Source: Sphaerotilus microaerophilus (GTDB lineage Bacteria > Pseudomonadota > Gammaproteobacteria > Burkholderiales > Burkholderiaceae_C). From it: a stretch of DNA of 64,000 bases. Under the pieces are notes generated by a model. That model was given only the letters and a program-made list of their open reading frames with translations. It searched no databases and was not told the DNA's origin. Shown here piece by piece: positions 1 through 5,523 of this stretch. Position numbers and translations under genes: made by a program. The stretch spans positions 2,728,001 through 2,792,000 of the forward strand of contig NZ_AP025730.1 in assembly GCF_023734135.1 (NCBI RefSeq). The letters run 5' to 3'. Numbering within the stretch: position 1 is the first letter of the stretch; each line of letters starts with the position of its first letter.

Positions 1-545
1 AGCTCGCCCAGCCAGATCCGCCGCCCGGCGGGCACCTCGCGGTTGACGGGGGTGTCGCCGTAGGGGATCAGGAAGCGCCGGTTCGAGGTCGGCTCGATCT
101 CGCCGGTGACGTCCACCCCGGTCAATTCGCGCAGGAAGCCGTGACCCATCCACTGCCCGCCGACATCGCGCGCGCCGGTGGACCAGGTGGTCAGCAGCTG
201 CCCGCCGATGTCGCGAAAGCGCAGCAGCGCTCCCCGCTCGGCCGCACTGAGCGCCACCGTCGAGGGCAGGACCAGCACGTCCTGCGGTTTTAGCGCGGCC
301 AGCTCCTCCGGGCTGTGCAGTTCCCGGAAGACATGCCCGCGCCCCTGCAGCAGGCGGCGCCAGGGGCCCAGCAGGGCGTCGTGGCTGCCGCCTACGCCGG
401 GCAGGTAGGCGCGCGTGCTGGGTGAGGCGTAGAGCGCCACCTGGCCCTCGGCGCGCGCCTGAACCGGCAACAGCAGTGCCAGCGCCGCGACCAACAGCGC
501 GCAGCCCCGCAGGGTGAGCGGCAGCAGGAAGGCCGCGAGCCTCAT
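1..545 (-). CDS. Exported protein of polysaccharide operon, 3' end outside window
   Basis: The reading frame starts at the ATG at 545, overlapping the stop of the upstream small membrane protein gene (ATGA), and runs off the left edge after about 181 codons. Residues 1-32 form a clear signal peptide: a short basic start, a leucine/alanine-rich core, and a probable cleavage after an ARA-type motif. The visible mature part alternates strands and helices (for example a VLVLPSTVALS strand followed by GALLRFRDIGGQLLTTW), resembling the glutamine-amidotransferase-like folds that precede polysaccharide deacetylase domains in some exported proteins. The catalytic part, if any, is not in the window. 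Position after a PgaC-type synthase suggests a periplasmic polysaccharide-modifying protein, such as a PgaB-like deacetylase. That is an inference from context. Confident that it is a real gene; function uncertain. Confidence 0.75.
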   Translation of the reverse strand, partial: MRLAAFLLPLTLRGCALLVAALALLLPVQARAEGQVALYASPSTRAYLPGVGGSHDALLGPWRRLLQGRGHVFRELHSPEELAALKPQDVLVLPSTVALSAAERGALLRFRDIGGQLLTTWSTGARDVGGQWMGHGFLRELTGVDVTGEIEPTSNRRFLIPYGDTPVNREVPAGRRIWLGE

Positions 546-805: not shown

Positions 806-2242
806 CTAGATCTTTCCTTCTCTGGTGAGCTTGCCCCAGGTCATGTCGAGGCGCAGCAGTTCTTCAAGGGTGGCGATGAGCTTGGTGATGTCCGAGAAGA
901 TGGCGTAGAAGCGGTAGAGCAGCACGCCGGGCAGCAGGCGGGGGTCCTCCTCGTCGAGCACGAGGCAGTAGGTGGTGACGGCCACGTCGAACAGCGCGGC
1001 GAGCAGCCACCACAGGAAGAGGTACTCGAAGCTGCCGAAGGCCAGCGTCGCGTGCGTGAAGAAGGCCAGCATGAACAGGCTGAGCACCGGCACCACCAGT
1101 GAATCGGCCGCCATGTACCAGAGCGACAGGCTCGCCACCGGGTGCTGGCGCAGCCGGGTGAGCAGGTGGCGGTGCTTGAGCACGCACTGCACGGTGCCGC
1201 GGGTCCAGCGGTAGCGCTGGTTGACCAGGTCCAGCCAGCGGCTGGGCGACTCGGCCCAGGCCTGGGCGGTGGGCTCGTAGGTCACGGCCCAGCCGGCGGC
1301 CAGCATCTTGAGGGTCAGGTCGCGGTCTTCGGCGAAGGTGTCGCTGTCGTAGCCACCGGCCTCGATCAGCGCCTCGCGACGGAAGACGCCCAGCGGCCCG
1401 CCGATCACGCTGACCGCCCGCACGGAACTCTGCGCACGCCGCTCCAGCGCCAGGCCCTGGATGTACTCGATGGCCTGCAGCCGGGTGGCGAGGTTCTCCC
1501 GGTTGGCCACCTTGACGTTGCCGGCCACGGCGCCCACCGTGGGGTCGTCGAAGTGCGGCACGCAGGCGCGCAGTGCGTTCGGGCTGATGCGGCTGTCGGC
1601 GTCCATGTTCAGCACCAGCGAGCCACGCGCCTGTGCCAGGCCCACGTTGAGCGCGGAGGACTTGCCGCCGTTGGGCTTGCGGATCACCCGCACCCGCGAA
1701 GACTCGCGTGCCGCCTCCTGGGCGCGCAGGTAGGTGTCGTCCGACGAACCGTCGTCGATCACCAGCACCTCGTAGCAAGGGTAGTCCAGCTCCAGCAGCG
1801 AACGCACCGACTGGCGGATCACCGGGCCCTCGTTGTAGGCGGGCACCACGATGGAGATGAAGGGCAGCGGCCGCCCGGCCTCGGCCATCGCGGCGGCGCG
1901 CGGCGCTTCGTCCTCCTCGCCGGGGCGCAGGGCGGTGTCGACGCCCGAGGCGGTCAGGAAGGCGACGTAGCGCAGCATCAGCAGCGCCACATAGAGGCTC
2001 AGCAACGTCAGCGCCGGGCCGCTGTGGCCGAACTCGACGCCGTCGAGCGTGCTCATCACGTGCCAGGTCAGCACCGCGCGCTCGTTGAGCAGCGGCAGCA
2101 GCAGCGTCAGCGGCAGCAGCACCAGCAGCAGGGTGAGCAGCACCACCACCTTGCCCTGGCCGGGCCGGCGCCGGCGCAGCCAGGCCAGCAGCGTGGCCAG
2201 ATGCGTCCTCAGGCTCATGCCCGCCGTTCTCCCCGCGTTCAT
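806..2242 (-). CDS. PgaC-type family-2 glycosyltransferase (exopolysaccharide synthase)
   Basis: A 478-residue processive beta-glycosyltransferase in the inner membrane. All hallmarks of the poly-N-acetylglucosamine/cellulose synthase group are visible: a DDG triad at residues 163-165, DAD at 214-216, the ED pair at 305-306 (TFAEDRD) and the QRYRW (QxxRW) motif at 342-346. Two membrane helices precede the catalytic domain (about 31-52 and 76-97), and three or four follow it (from about 370). It resembles PgaC/IcaA more than BcsA because there is no C-terminal PilZ domain. It starts 7 bp after the stop of the BcsE/porin fusion gene. An alternative start at the ATG at 2218 has a GGGGAG sequence upstream. 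The sugar polymerised cannot be read from sequence; GlcNAc or a related hexosamine is the best guess. Confidence 0.9.
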   Translation of the reverse strand: MNAGRTAGMSLRTHLATLLAWLRRRRPGQGKVVVLLTLLLVLLPLTLLLPLLNERAVLTWHVMSTLDGVEFGHSGPALTLLSLYVALLMLRYVAFLTASGVDTALRPGEEDEAPRAAAMAEAGRPLPFISIVVPAYNEGPVIRQSVRSLLELDYPCYEVLVIDDGSSDDTYLRAQEAARESSRVRVIRKPNGGKSSALNVGLAQARGSLVLNMDADSRISPNALRACVPHFDDPTVGAVAGNVKVANRENLATRLQAIEYIQGLALERRAQSSVRAVSVIGGPLGVFRREALIEAGGYDSDTFAEDRDLTLKMLAAGWAVTYEPTAQAWAESPSRWLDLVNQRYRWTRGTVQCVLKHRHLLTRLRQHPVASLSLWYMAADSLVVPVLSLFMLAFFTHATLAFGSFEYLFLWWLLAALFDVAVTTYCLVLDEEDPRLLPGVLLYRFYAIFSDITKLIATLEELLRLDMTWGKLTREGKI

Positions 2243-2249
2243 CCGCGGT

Positions 2250-5200
2250 TCACCAGAGCTTTTCGAGCGCGGCCAGCACGCTCGTCGCCCGGTAGCTGGA
2301 CTGGCCGCGCCGGGTGGTCTCGTGCGAGGCCTCGGCCCGCAGCGCCCAGTCCGCGCTCAGCCAGCGCTTGCCGCCCGCAGACAGGGCCCAGCCGTTGGCG
2401 CCCTCGCCACCCAGGCGCTGGCTGCGCTTGAGCTCGCCCTGCAGCTCCCACTGCGCCTCCCAGCGGCCCCAGGCCAGGCCGAGGTTGGCGGTGTAGTGGC
2501 CATCGGCCGGGGACCAGTAGCGCGCCTCGGCGCGCTCGGCCCGGCGGGCCGACAGGCCGGCGAAGGCCTTCAGGCCCAGGCTCGCGGGCAGGGGCTGCCA
2601 GGCCGGCGTCACGCGCAGGCTGGCATCGTCGATGCGATTGCCGTCCGAGACGGCGTAGCGGGTCCACTGGCCCTGCCACTGGCCGCTGCGGTGGTCGGCC
2701 TGGGCGCCGAGTTCGACCATGCGGGCGGTCAGACCGTCCTGCAGGGCGCGCGGGCTGAAGGCCAGCTGGCCCCAGTTCACCCGGCCGGCGCGCAGGCTGA
2801 GGCCGCCGTCGAGCAGGCGCACGCCGGCCTCGCCGAACAGCCGCGTCTGCGGCTGCTGCTGCGCGGTGAGCTGCAGCTGCGGCGCCCACGACAGGCCGCG
2901 GTGCTCGTAGCGCAGGCCGAGTTCGCGCGGGTTCAGGCTGACCTGCCCCGGCGCATCGGTTTCGTGCCGGCCCTCGGCCGTCAGCTCGAAGACCTGGGCC
3001 AGGTCCGGGTGCCACCAGCGGTGCGACAGCGTCAGGCTGCTGCGGCGTGCCTCGCTGGAGTCGCCGACGTGGCCAAGCTGCACTGTGCTGCGCGGTCGCA
3101 GGTGACGGCCGGCCGCAGCCAGGCCGGCACGGGCCTCCACATGGCCAGGCTCCTGCGCCAGCACGCTGCGAAACAGCGGATCCGCCAGCTCGGGACGGCC
3201 ACTCCACAGCCGCACGTGGGCGATGCCGAGCCGGCCCTCACGTGCCAGCGGCGTGCCAGCCAGCGCCCCATAGTGCTCGATCGCGCGGGGGTAGTCGCCC
3301 GTCCAGGCCAGGCTGTTGGCCAGGCGCAGGCGCAGGTCGTGGTCGCCGGGGCGCTGCTGGATCTCGGCCAGCCCCAGCCGGGCCGCCTCGGCGTAGCGGG
3401 CCTCTTCGTAGGCCTGGGTGGCGGAGTCCGCCGGTGCGGGGGGCGCCGGGGAAGCCGGTGCGGTCGTGGTGGCCGCAGCCGCCGGGACGGTGTCGCTGCT
3501 GGCCAGCTGTGCCCCAGCCTCGGGCAAGGACGTGCGGGCGGCGAGGGGCGTGCGCGCCTTCCGGCCGGCCTTGGCCGCCGTCGTCCCTGTTCCTGCCCCC
3601 GTCTGGGCCAGTGCGGGCGCCGGTGCGGGCAGCAGTGCCAGGGCCAGCAGGGAGGCCAGCAGCGGCCCGATCAGCACCCGCGAGTGCACCGACCGCTGGC
3701 TGCCCGGCATCGTCACGACGTTGTGCGCGTTGCCCGTCTGTGCGCTGGCGGGGACGTCACTCAGGTCCTGGCGCAGGTCGTCCAGGCGCTCGGCGATCGC
3801 CTCGTCGGCGAACAGGCTGGTGCGCTTGACGCCCTGCTGCAGACCCTGGTTGCTCAGCCAGCGGTTCACGACCTGCACCGCGTCGCGCTCCCGGCAGCCC
3901 TGCAGCAGGAAGACCAGCGTGTCCGCCGTGCGGGTGGCCAGGTCGCCCCGCCGGGCCGCGCAGGCCGCGGCGGCGTCCCAGTCCACGTCGCTCTCTCGTC
4001 GGACCTCGACTTCGGCCAGGGTCGAGGGCACCTCCAGCGCGCGGTTGCGCTGCAGCGCCGCATCGGCCTGCTGCAGGAACAGCCCGTTGGCCAGCCAGCC
4101 ACTGGCCGGCGGTTCCACGAGCATGGGCTGCCAGTCCTCCAGCGCCAGGCTGGCCGGCACGGTGATGACCTCGGGCGGTGCCACGCGCTCGCCTGTGAGC
4201 AGGGCGGCCCAGGTGCTCGGCGGCGCCACGGCCGCCAGCACGTTGTCCACGCCGGCGCGCAGCAGCAGCTTGCGCTGCAGGTGCTCGCGCACGCGGTAGC
4301 GCGACTCGCGCACCACGATGCGGGCGTGGGGCCCCAGCAGGGCGCGCAGGTCCTGCATCTGCTGCACGAACAGGCCGAAGTCGGTCGATTCGCCCAGCGC
4401 CACCAGCGCGTTGGCGCCCTTCTTCTGGCTGGCCACCCGGGTCAGCAACTCATTGATGCTGCGCGCACGCAGCCACTGGACCTGCGTGGCGAGCGCATCG
4501 AGCCCGGCCTCGGCCGGGCCGACGTACCACACCCGCTGCCGGCCCCGCGGTGCGCGCGGACTGCTGCGACCTTCGCGACCTTCCTCGGCGGTGGCTGGGG
4601 CCTGGCCTCGGGCCGGCAGATCGGCAGGGGTGGCGGGGCCGGCGGCCTGGGGGGGCAGGGCATGGGTGCTCGTATCGGCGCCGAACGACAGGCTGCGCCC
4701 GACTTGATCGCCGGCCGGCGTGTGCCAGAAATCCATCTGCATGAGCAGGCCGTTGGCCTCGGGCTGCACCCGGGCGACGCCGCAGAAGTGCTGCAGGGCG
4801 GCCTGGTTGCCGTCCAGGATCGGCCGGCTGGCGCTGCTGCGCAGGAACAGCAGCAGCATCGTGTGGCCGCGCTGCCGGGCCCATTCCCCGTAGATGCGGG
4901 CTTGCTGGACCACCGCCTGGTGGTCGTGCGGGGTGAACAGGTCGTCCGACTGGTCAATGACGATCAGCGCACCGTCCTCGATGCCGAAGTGATCGAGCTC
5001 CTGCACGTAGCCTGCCGCGCCGCGGCGGAAGAGGTGGGTGTCGTGGTCCGCGTTGGCCGTGAACAGCTTCAGGCGCTGCTGCTCGAAGGCCGCCGACAGC
5101 TCGGTTGGCGCACCACCCTGGCGCAGCACCGTGGCAAAGGTGCCCTGGTCCGGGCTGAGCGGCGTGATCAGCACGCAGGGCCGGCCTTCGGCCAGGGCCG

Positions 5201-5354
5201 CGCGGATCGGCGCGACCCAGAGCGCGCCCCGGGCGGCGGCGGTCTCCAGGCCGATGGCGTACAGCGCGCCGCGTTCCAGGCGCGATGGGAACACCGGACT
5301 GTCTTCCTTGCCTTGCGCTGGCGATCGGCTGGCGGCTCGGCCGGTTGAACTCAT
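2250..5354 (-). CDS. BcsE-like c-di-GMP receptor fused in frame to TPR/outer-membrane porin
   Basis: One uninterrupted frame of 1034 codons preceded by a good GGAGGGAG ribosome site. Residues 1 to about 500 look like the cytoplasmic cellulose-synthesis regulator BcsE (a degenerate NTPase-like part followed by a GIL-type region). An RxxD motif, RRGD at 468-471, is compatible with c-di-GMP binding. Residues 549-585 read as a complete signal peptide (Met549, basic stretch, leucine/alanine core, PALA cleavage region). After a Thr/Ala/Pro linker come TPR-like repeats (about 645-760) and a beta-rich segment with alternating hydrophobic residues to a C-terminal Trp (about 765-1034). That arrangement matches PgaA-type polysaccharide export porins. 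A cytoplasmic receptor joined to an outer-membrane barrel is topologically strange. Either Met549 (ATG at 3710) is an internal start giving two proteins, or this is a true fusion. First gene of the operon. Confidence 0.8.
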   Translation of the reverse strand: MSSTGRAASRSPAQGKEDSPVFPSRLERGALYAIGLETAAARGALWVAPIRAALAEGRPCVLITPLSPDQGTFATVLRQGGAPTELSAAFEQQRLKLFTANADHDTHLFRRGAAGYVQELDHFGIEDGALIVIDQSDDLFTPHDHQAVVQQARIYGEWARQRGHTMLLLFLRSSASRPILDGNQAALQHFCGVARVQPEANGLLMQMDFWHTPAGDQVGRSLSFGADTSTHALPPQAAGPATPADLPARGQAPATAEEGREGRSSPRAPRGRQRVWYVGPAEAGLDALATQVQWLRARSINELLTRVASQKKGANALVALGESTDFGLFVQQMQDLRALLGPHARIVVRESRYRVREHLQRKLLLRAGVDNVLAAVAPPSTWAALLTGERVAPPEVITVPASLALEDWQPMLVEPPASGWLANGLFLQQADAALQRNRALEVPSTLAEVEVRRESDVDWDAAAACAARRGDLATRTADTLVFLLQGCRERDAVQVVNRWLSNQGLQQGVKRTSLFADEAIAERLDDLRQDLSDVPASAQTGNAHNVVTMPGSQRSVHSRVLIGPLLASLLALALLPAPAPALAQTGAGTGTTAAKAGRKARTPLAARTSLPEAGAQLASSDTVPAAAATTTAPASPAPPAPADSATQAYEEARYAEAARLGLAEIQQRPGDHDLRLRLANSLAWTGDYPRAIEHYGALAGTPLAREGRLGIAHVRLWSGRPELADPLFRSVLAQEPGHVEARAGLAAAGRHLRPRSTVQLGHVGDSSEARRSSLTLSHRWWHPDLAQVFELTAEGRHETDAPGQVSLNPRELGLRYEHRGLSWAPQLQLTAQQQPQTRLFGEAGVRLLDGGLSLRAGRVNWGQLAFSPRALQDGLTARMVELGAQADHRSGQWQGQWTRYAVSDGNRIDDASLRVTPAWQPLPASLGLKAFAGLSARRAERAEARYWSPADGHYTANLGLAWGRWEAQWELQGELKRSQRLGGEGANGWALSAGGKRWLSADWALRAEASHETTRRGQSSYRATSVLAALEKLW

Positions 5355-5523
5355 CTGAACACTCCCTCCGGGACATGGATGGCGATGGCATCACGACAGG
5401 GCAACGCACATCAGGAAACAATTAGATGGGAAATCTTCACATTTATTGTATCGACTGAGATTTCCGTTTCGGACGTCGTCCTTTCGCTGCAAATGAAAAA
5501 CGCACGTAATTGGATGATACGCG

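Follow-up and report, generated by a model that had tools for sequence, protein, structure and literature searches.

The window analysed here, 64,000 nucleotides (nt) of the Sphaerotilus microaerophilus genome (C1:2728001-2792000), carries on its minus strand a gene that joins a BcsE-like half, of the type of the cyclic di-GMP (c-di-GMP) receptors, to a putative outer membrane porin. The frame is read from an ATG to a stop at 2250-2252 and is preceded by a Shine-Dalgarno-like sequence (Table 1). At the level of the whole genome the frame is likewise single and uninterrupted by stops. A frame of 1099 codons lies over nearly the same bases on the plus strand (2049-5348) and is probably an effect of base composition. 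The length of the fused frame is therefore little proof by itself, and it is its conservation that proves the gene to be real; the frame is thus confirmed at these coordinates. A first-pass annotation, made from the sequence, had described a BcsE-like half with an RxxD motif running without a stop into a signal peptide, tetratricopeptide repeats (TPR) and a probable barrel. These parts were all recovered, and the interpretation attached to them is partly supported.

Table 1. Positions in the window of the fused gene, its parts and the adjoining genes
Feature	Position	Strand	Basis or remark
Shine-Dalgarno-like GGAGGGAG	5362..5369	-	7 nt 5' of the fused-frame ATG; read in the sequence
Fused gene, 1034 codons: BcsE-like half, signal segment, TPR, probable barrel	2250..5354	-	
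BcsE region, residues 25-543 (PF10995)	3726..5282	-	98.9 bits, cut-off 25
RRGD, I-site-like c-di-GMP motif, residues 468-471	3942..3953	-	Motif conservation and alignment to RTGD of solved BcsE
Met549 codon, proposed internal start	3708..3710	-	ATG at 3710
Internal signal-peptide-like segment, residues 554-583, basic then hydrophobic, ending ALA/Q	3606..3695	-	Lines up with N-termini of stand-alone porins
TPR repeats, residues 649-747	3114..3410	-	TPR_19 above cut-off, TPR_14 below
Probable outer membrane beta-barrel, residues 751-1034, last residue Trp	2253..3104	-	Periodicity and C-terminal Trp
Family 2 glycosyltransferase (GT2), polysaccharide synthase (PgaC/NodC-like)	806..2242	-	Starts 7 nt past the fused stop; PF00535, PF13641
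Polysaccharide deacetylase gene, 5' part, 605 codons in total	1..545	-	G000:C1:2726728-2728545, remainder left of the window; PF01522, 38.2 bits, cut-off 23.1

In a protein search, 17 fused proteins were recovered, with identities down to 40 %. One of them (P0001, 99 %) is the window's own protein, leaving 16 non-self clusters, three of which hold 28, 21 and 10 member sequences. A profile search regained 16 of the 17 (P0009 was not among the matches) together with two stand-alone BcsE from Burkholderia. Both searches scored roughly 8000 candidates sharing most words, at lengths of 0.55 to 1.75 times the query, so stand-alone genes are not counted fairly. At the DNA level we found a fused relative in a Burkholderiales metagenome-assembled genome (locus L018), whose frame is P0016.

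In a tree of the BcsE half (35 rows) the 17 fused rows fall on one side of a branch with support 100/100, and in a tree of the porin half (36 rows) they likewise form one clade (97/99). L018 was omitted from both trees as a copy of P0016, and locus L027 has no BcsE row. Both trees drew a long-branch warning from the program and have midpoint rooting only, modest sampling and fused rows recruited by a fused query. Taken together, the 16 non-self clusters and the single clade in two trees suggest an old fusion rather than an artefact.

The fusion, carried by a small group of betaproteobacteria, is rare among the genomes searched. Among the genomes of 149 relatives it was found in the window's own genome only (three of the 149 gave a match of any kind at 1e-20), and the same was true of 150 genomes of the order (3 of 150 with any match at 1e-15); the two samples share genomes and their counts are not summed. 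A contig scan with a single protein as query gave seven stretches, none of them confirmed. No title or abstract among the literature matches listed concerns a BcsE-porin fusion, which is no proof that none exists.

The BcsE region scores above the cut-off of PF10995, contrary to the possibility, raised by the first-pass annotation, that the N-terminal half has no BcsE similarity. The score against the NCBI equivalog TIGR03369 (BcsE) is 61.7 bits, under its cut-off of 244.65. A profile of the 17 fused proteins retrieves three distinct solved BcsE sequences with E values of about 4e-10 to 6e-10, and the RTGD of these structures sits under the RxGD of the fused proteins. RxxD is present in all 17 and RxGD in 16, the exception being P0016 with RKSD; in the 17-row alignment R468 and D471 never vary, and G470 hardly does. 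The excerpt of PMC11470070 seen here terms the motif at this position absolutely necessary for c-di-GMP binding. The conservation suggests that the BcsE-like half binds c-di-GMP.

In the window protein the most hydrophobic 17-mer starts at residue 560 and is followed by ALA/QT (the slash marks the cut point), with the cut point after residue 583. This junction segment is the top hydrophobic 17-mer in 16 of the 17 fused proteins and the second in P0011. All 17 have one to three basic residues within the 15 residues before it. Acidic residues precede it in four (P0003, P0004, P0010, P0012), and in P0010 they outnumber the basic ones, three to two. The pattern small-x-Ala-Gln follows the segment in 16 of the 17, where 2000 shuffles gave 4.1 on average and 10 at most; the observed count is 15 if P0002 is left out, where the pattern match lies downstream of a likelier site. 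ALAQTG of the window protein aligns with TLAQTT of the N-termini of stand-alone porins. A signal-peptidase-like site kept past an internal hydrophobic segment, as looked for in an internally cleaved polyprotein, is thus present, and the conserved small-x-Ala site points to cleavage. Contrary to what had been supposed, the fused chain need not span both membranes.

Beyond the junction the protein carries TPR_19 at residues 649-697 (30.1 bits, cut-off 25), and TPR_14 at residues 707-747 falls under its cut-off (15.5 bits against 23.5). The last 275 residues (760-1034) have a period-2 hydrophobicity of z = 4.0 against 300 shuffles, on an alignment of 137 rows. The TPR stretch, taken as a control, gave z = -1.3 at period 2 and z = -0.9 at the helical period. 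Trp is the final residue in all 17 fused proteins and lies within the last three residues in 120 of 120 stand-alone relatives (the best 120 of 307 matches).

The porin had been taken for a PgaA type, an assignment we dropped: the sequence places it with neither PgaA nor BcsC, and only TPR stretches match. The window protein was not among the matches of TIGR03939 (PgaA, cut-off 366.65 bits). Of the 48 rows from relatives, 20 matched this model weakly (best E value 8.2e-07), and its top score among eight tabled proteins was 26.3 bits, in the TPR part only. Aligning the porin with hhalign to single E. coli PgaA and BcsC sequences, a comparison of low sensitivity with one sequence per target, gave 59 and 54 columns, again TPR only.

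A genome scan, using one genome per species and two peptide patterns, matched 60 stretches, 19 of which encode a relative. Seventeen of these loci have separate and adjacent bcsE and porin genes, one is fused (L018), and in one, L027, the porin stands alone at the end of a contig. The order at separate loci is bcsE, porin, glycosyltransferase and usually deacetylase; the GT2 gene comes next in 19 of 19 loci and the deacetylase is found in 18 (exception L020). In G024, a genome of the same family as the window's, bcsE and porin are likewise separate genes. For 17 porin genes (16 loci, L027 and L033 left aside, plus G024), with starts chosen by us, the gap to bcsE is -4 to 269 nt. Their N-termini are more or less hydrophobic, with a best 17-mer of 1.19-2.26 (lowest in L035 and L028).

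These separate neighbours in 17 of the 19 loci indicate that two adjacent genes became fused within an operon in which a BcsE-type receptor was present beforehand. The first-pass annotation saw a cellulose part joined to a poly-GlcNAc part; we reject a joining of the two systems, as both parts stand side by side before the glycosyltransferase gene in those 17 loci and the window genome gave no BcsB match and no BcsA or PgaB match over cut-off (see below). In L030 and L036 bcsE and porin overlap by 4 nt and BcsE has no long tail. A fusion that arose by way of such an overlap is plausible. A sister position of these two loci to the fused clade was considered and dropped, since both trees, unrooted, amount to a three-way split between the fused rows, L030 with L036, and the rest.

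Three further features of the separate loci were observed. In 12 of 18 separate BcsE (L019, L021-L026, L028, L031-L034) there is a long Pro-rich tail with the motif FGKxxxPRAxRS, a pattern found in none of the 17 fused proteins. A second, divergent deacetylase-like gene lies 5' of bcsE in 9 of the 19 loci (L021, L022, L024, L025, L028, L031-L034), with a weak PF01522 match in both of the two examined. L016 (G024:C18), L037 (G074), L038 (G183) and L039 (G163) contain BcsE-like frames whose listed match has no porin half.

Two known pathways were searched for in the window genome. BcsB gave zero matches (the control was positive in E. coli, also in B. subtilis). No BcsA exceeded its cut-off (best 44.6 bits against 699.1) and neither did any PgaB, with one match elsewhere in the genome at 84.5 bits against 321.9. 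The GT2 protein has the motifs DADS, AEDRD and QRYRW, and its best NCBIfam match is TIGR03937 (PgaC) with 195.6 bits, under the cut-off of 422.3, followed by MftF and NodC. Taking BcsA with BcsB as the mark of a cellulose (Bcs) system and the PgaC and PgaB equivalogs as that of a Pga system (PgaD was not searched for), we found neither pair.

Past the deacetylase and left of the window lies a chitinase-like gene of glycoside hydrolase family 18 (GH18; L002:9563-10741 plus strand, G000:C1:2725563-2726741, 79.6 bits), convergent with the operon. Four of the 19 loci have a GH18 gene adjoining the operon (L018, L020, L031 and L036, in the last in two frames), and it is more distant in L021 and L035; some loci stop short of its expected place. 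The combination of GT2, NodB-type deacetylase and GH18 suggests an N-acetylated amino-sugar polymer, and the exported polymer is likely to be an amino-sugar chain with part of its acetyl groups removed. The stalk genes of iron oxidisers were dropped as a precedent: the stalk cluster, in the part of PMC8250860 available, consists of a BcsB-like gene and EpsE-GT. About 5 kb past the deacetylase a PAS-GGDEF-EAL protein is encoded (L002:1690-5496 minus strand, G000:C1:2717690-2721496) that could be a local supplier or remover of c-di-GMP. A search of 20 kb of L002 against Rfam at gathering thresholds gave zero matches.

We consider it fairly probable that the fused chain, the product of one old fusion, is cut at the internal signal peptide into a BcsE receptor and an export porin. 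A single event would have joined a c-di-GMP receptor of the BcsE type to a TPR-bearing porin of the outer membrane, its neighbour in an exopolysaccharide operon, leaving the former signal peptide of the porin within the chain. The whole chain would be made from one start codon and its BcsE half would fold in the cytoplasm. The hydrophobic segment would then engage the Sec machinery in an N-in/C-out orientation, and signal peptidase I would cleave after small-x-Ala (Ala583 in the window protein). The spent signal segment, retained by BcsE, may serve as a C-terminal inner membrane anchor beside the GT2 synthase, a job similar to that of BcsF: in the excerpts of PMC7439463 and PMC11470070, co-expression with BcsF brings E. 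coli BcsE to membranes. The released TPR-barrel protein would reach the outer membrane as the export channel, and c-di-GMP bound to RxGD may turn on or stabilise the synthase.

Several observations weigh against this reading. The sites of P0009 (SHA/G) and probably P0002 (GRA/M) have no Gln, and all cleavage sites were assigned by eye and with a regular expression. Fused relatives other than L018 were seen as proteins and not as DNA. The barrel is probable from two features only, the periodicity and the C-terminal Trp, and the TPR control without a helical signal indicates that the periodicity method is coarse. The second I-site of E. coli, R-A-T-D in the REC* domain, is not kept in the fused proteins, where the Arg is present and the Asp is not; its absence suggests that the affinity for c-di-GMP may be low. 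In E. coli this motif (R306-A-T-D) lifts the affinity to the nanomolar range, according to the excerpt of PMC11470070.

It is conceivable, and in our estimate unlikely, that the chain stays uncut and spans both membranes, with a cytoplasmic BcsE, one inner membrane helix, a periplasmic linker with the TPRs and a barrel in the outer membrane. The frame has no stop, the fusion has been maintained through one clade, and in the group of eight that includes the window protein the linker from site to TPR measures 52-94 residues (62-94 if the P0002 site is GRA/M), which could bridge much of the periplasm. However, P0010-P0017 have linkers of no more than 21-27 residues, and P0009 one of 23, which we estimate to be too short to cross the periplasm with about three TPRs. 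An uncut chain would also leave the conserved signal-peptidase-like site to be explained, and its barrel would have to reach the outer membrane while the chain is held in the inner one. If true, c-di-GMP binding in the cytoplasm would act on an outer membrane export channel through one polypeptide.

About as unlikely as the uncut chain is an N-terminal half that has lost c-di-GMP binding and acts solely as a scaffold. Such a role would fit the lost R-A-T-D, and losses do happen in this family: of the 16 separate BcsE rows two, L030 and L036, and no others lack RxGD, possibly forming a c-di-GMP-blind branch. The presence of RxxD in every fused protein argues otherwise.

The first-pass annotation also offered Met549 as an internal start, so that nested frames would yield a porin precursor of 486 residues besides the 1034-residue chain. 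Met549 is kept in 16 of the 17 fused proteins directly before the signal segment, and residues 549-1034 would make a normal porin precursor. No Shine-Dalgarno-like sequence precedes it in the window, as the annotation had remarked, or in L018, whereas codon 1 has one. The block N/K-V/I-V-T/A just before it (3708-3725, minus strand, residues 544-549 with the Met) is conserved at the protein level in 15 of the 17 while its codons vary. Between the window and L018, identical residues have different codons in 8 of 10 cases at residues 531-560 and 8 of 12 at 561-640, compared to 45 of 112 (1-300), 29 of 71 (301-530) and 65 of 181 (641-1034), or 139 of 364 together; in this small sample of two sequences there is no sign of a conserved RNA signal around Met549. 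Moreover, an internal start cannot release BcsE because the long chain is still produced, and it would add porin only. We regard it as unlikely. A sequencing, assembly or recent mutational artefact, which separate genes in relatives had been expected to reveal, has a negligible chance, as such genes occur outside the fused clade only and the conserved clusters within it already refute this explanation.

The fused gene carries several implications. It points to an operon distinct from both bcs and pga that is under c-di-GMP control through a receptor of the BcsE type; this would extend BcsE past cellulose. A receptor-porin fusion with a signal peptide between its halves offers a natural test case for how bacteria process internal signal peptides, and also for whether a spent signal peptide can anchor a regulator in the membrane. 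The fusion would set a 1:1 supply of sensor and channel, hinting that both act in one trans-envelope machine.

E. coli BcsE, a GIL protein of type II cellulose synthesis, shares with the fused protein its Pfam family, domain span and RxGD motif. It differs in being unfused, in having the second R-A-T-D site and in being encoded before bcsF; the window genome, for its part, has no match to BcsB and no BcsA over cut-off. A signal peptide, TPRs and a C-terminal barrel are common to the PgaA and BcsC porins and, as predicted from its sequence, to the window porin; the TPR stretches alone align, and the window porin has far fewer TPRs than the 19 given for BcsC in the excerpt of PMC11379886. The operon resembles the Pga operon in its PgaC-like GT2, deacetylase and TPR porin, and differs from it by the presence of BcsE and by a GT2 below the PgaC cut-off, with no PgaB over cut-off. 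Another parallel is FbcH, the cytochrome b-c1 precursor of Bradyrhizobium, a single chain with probable cleavage at a signal peptide inside it; it belongs to a respiratory complex and has no outer membrane product. Fusions of neighbours in an exopolysaccharide operon are also described in Zymomonas, where BcsZ is joined to BcsC and BcsA to BcsB (PMC7112194, in excerpt). Those unite envelope parts, whereas the fusion in the window unites a cytoplasmic receptor with a probable outer membrane porin and has a signal peptide between the two.

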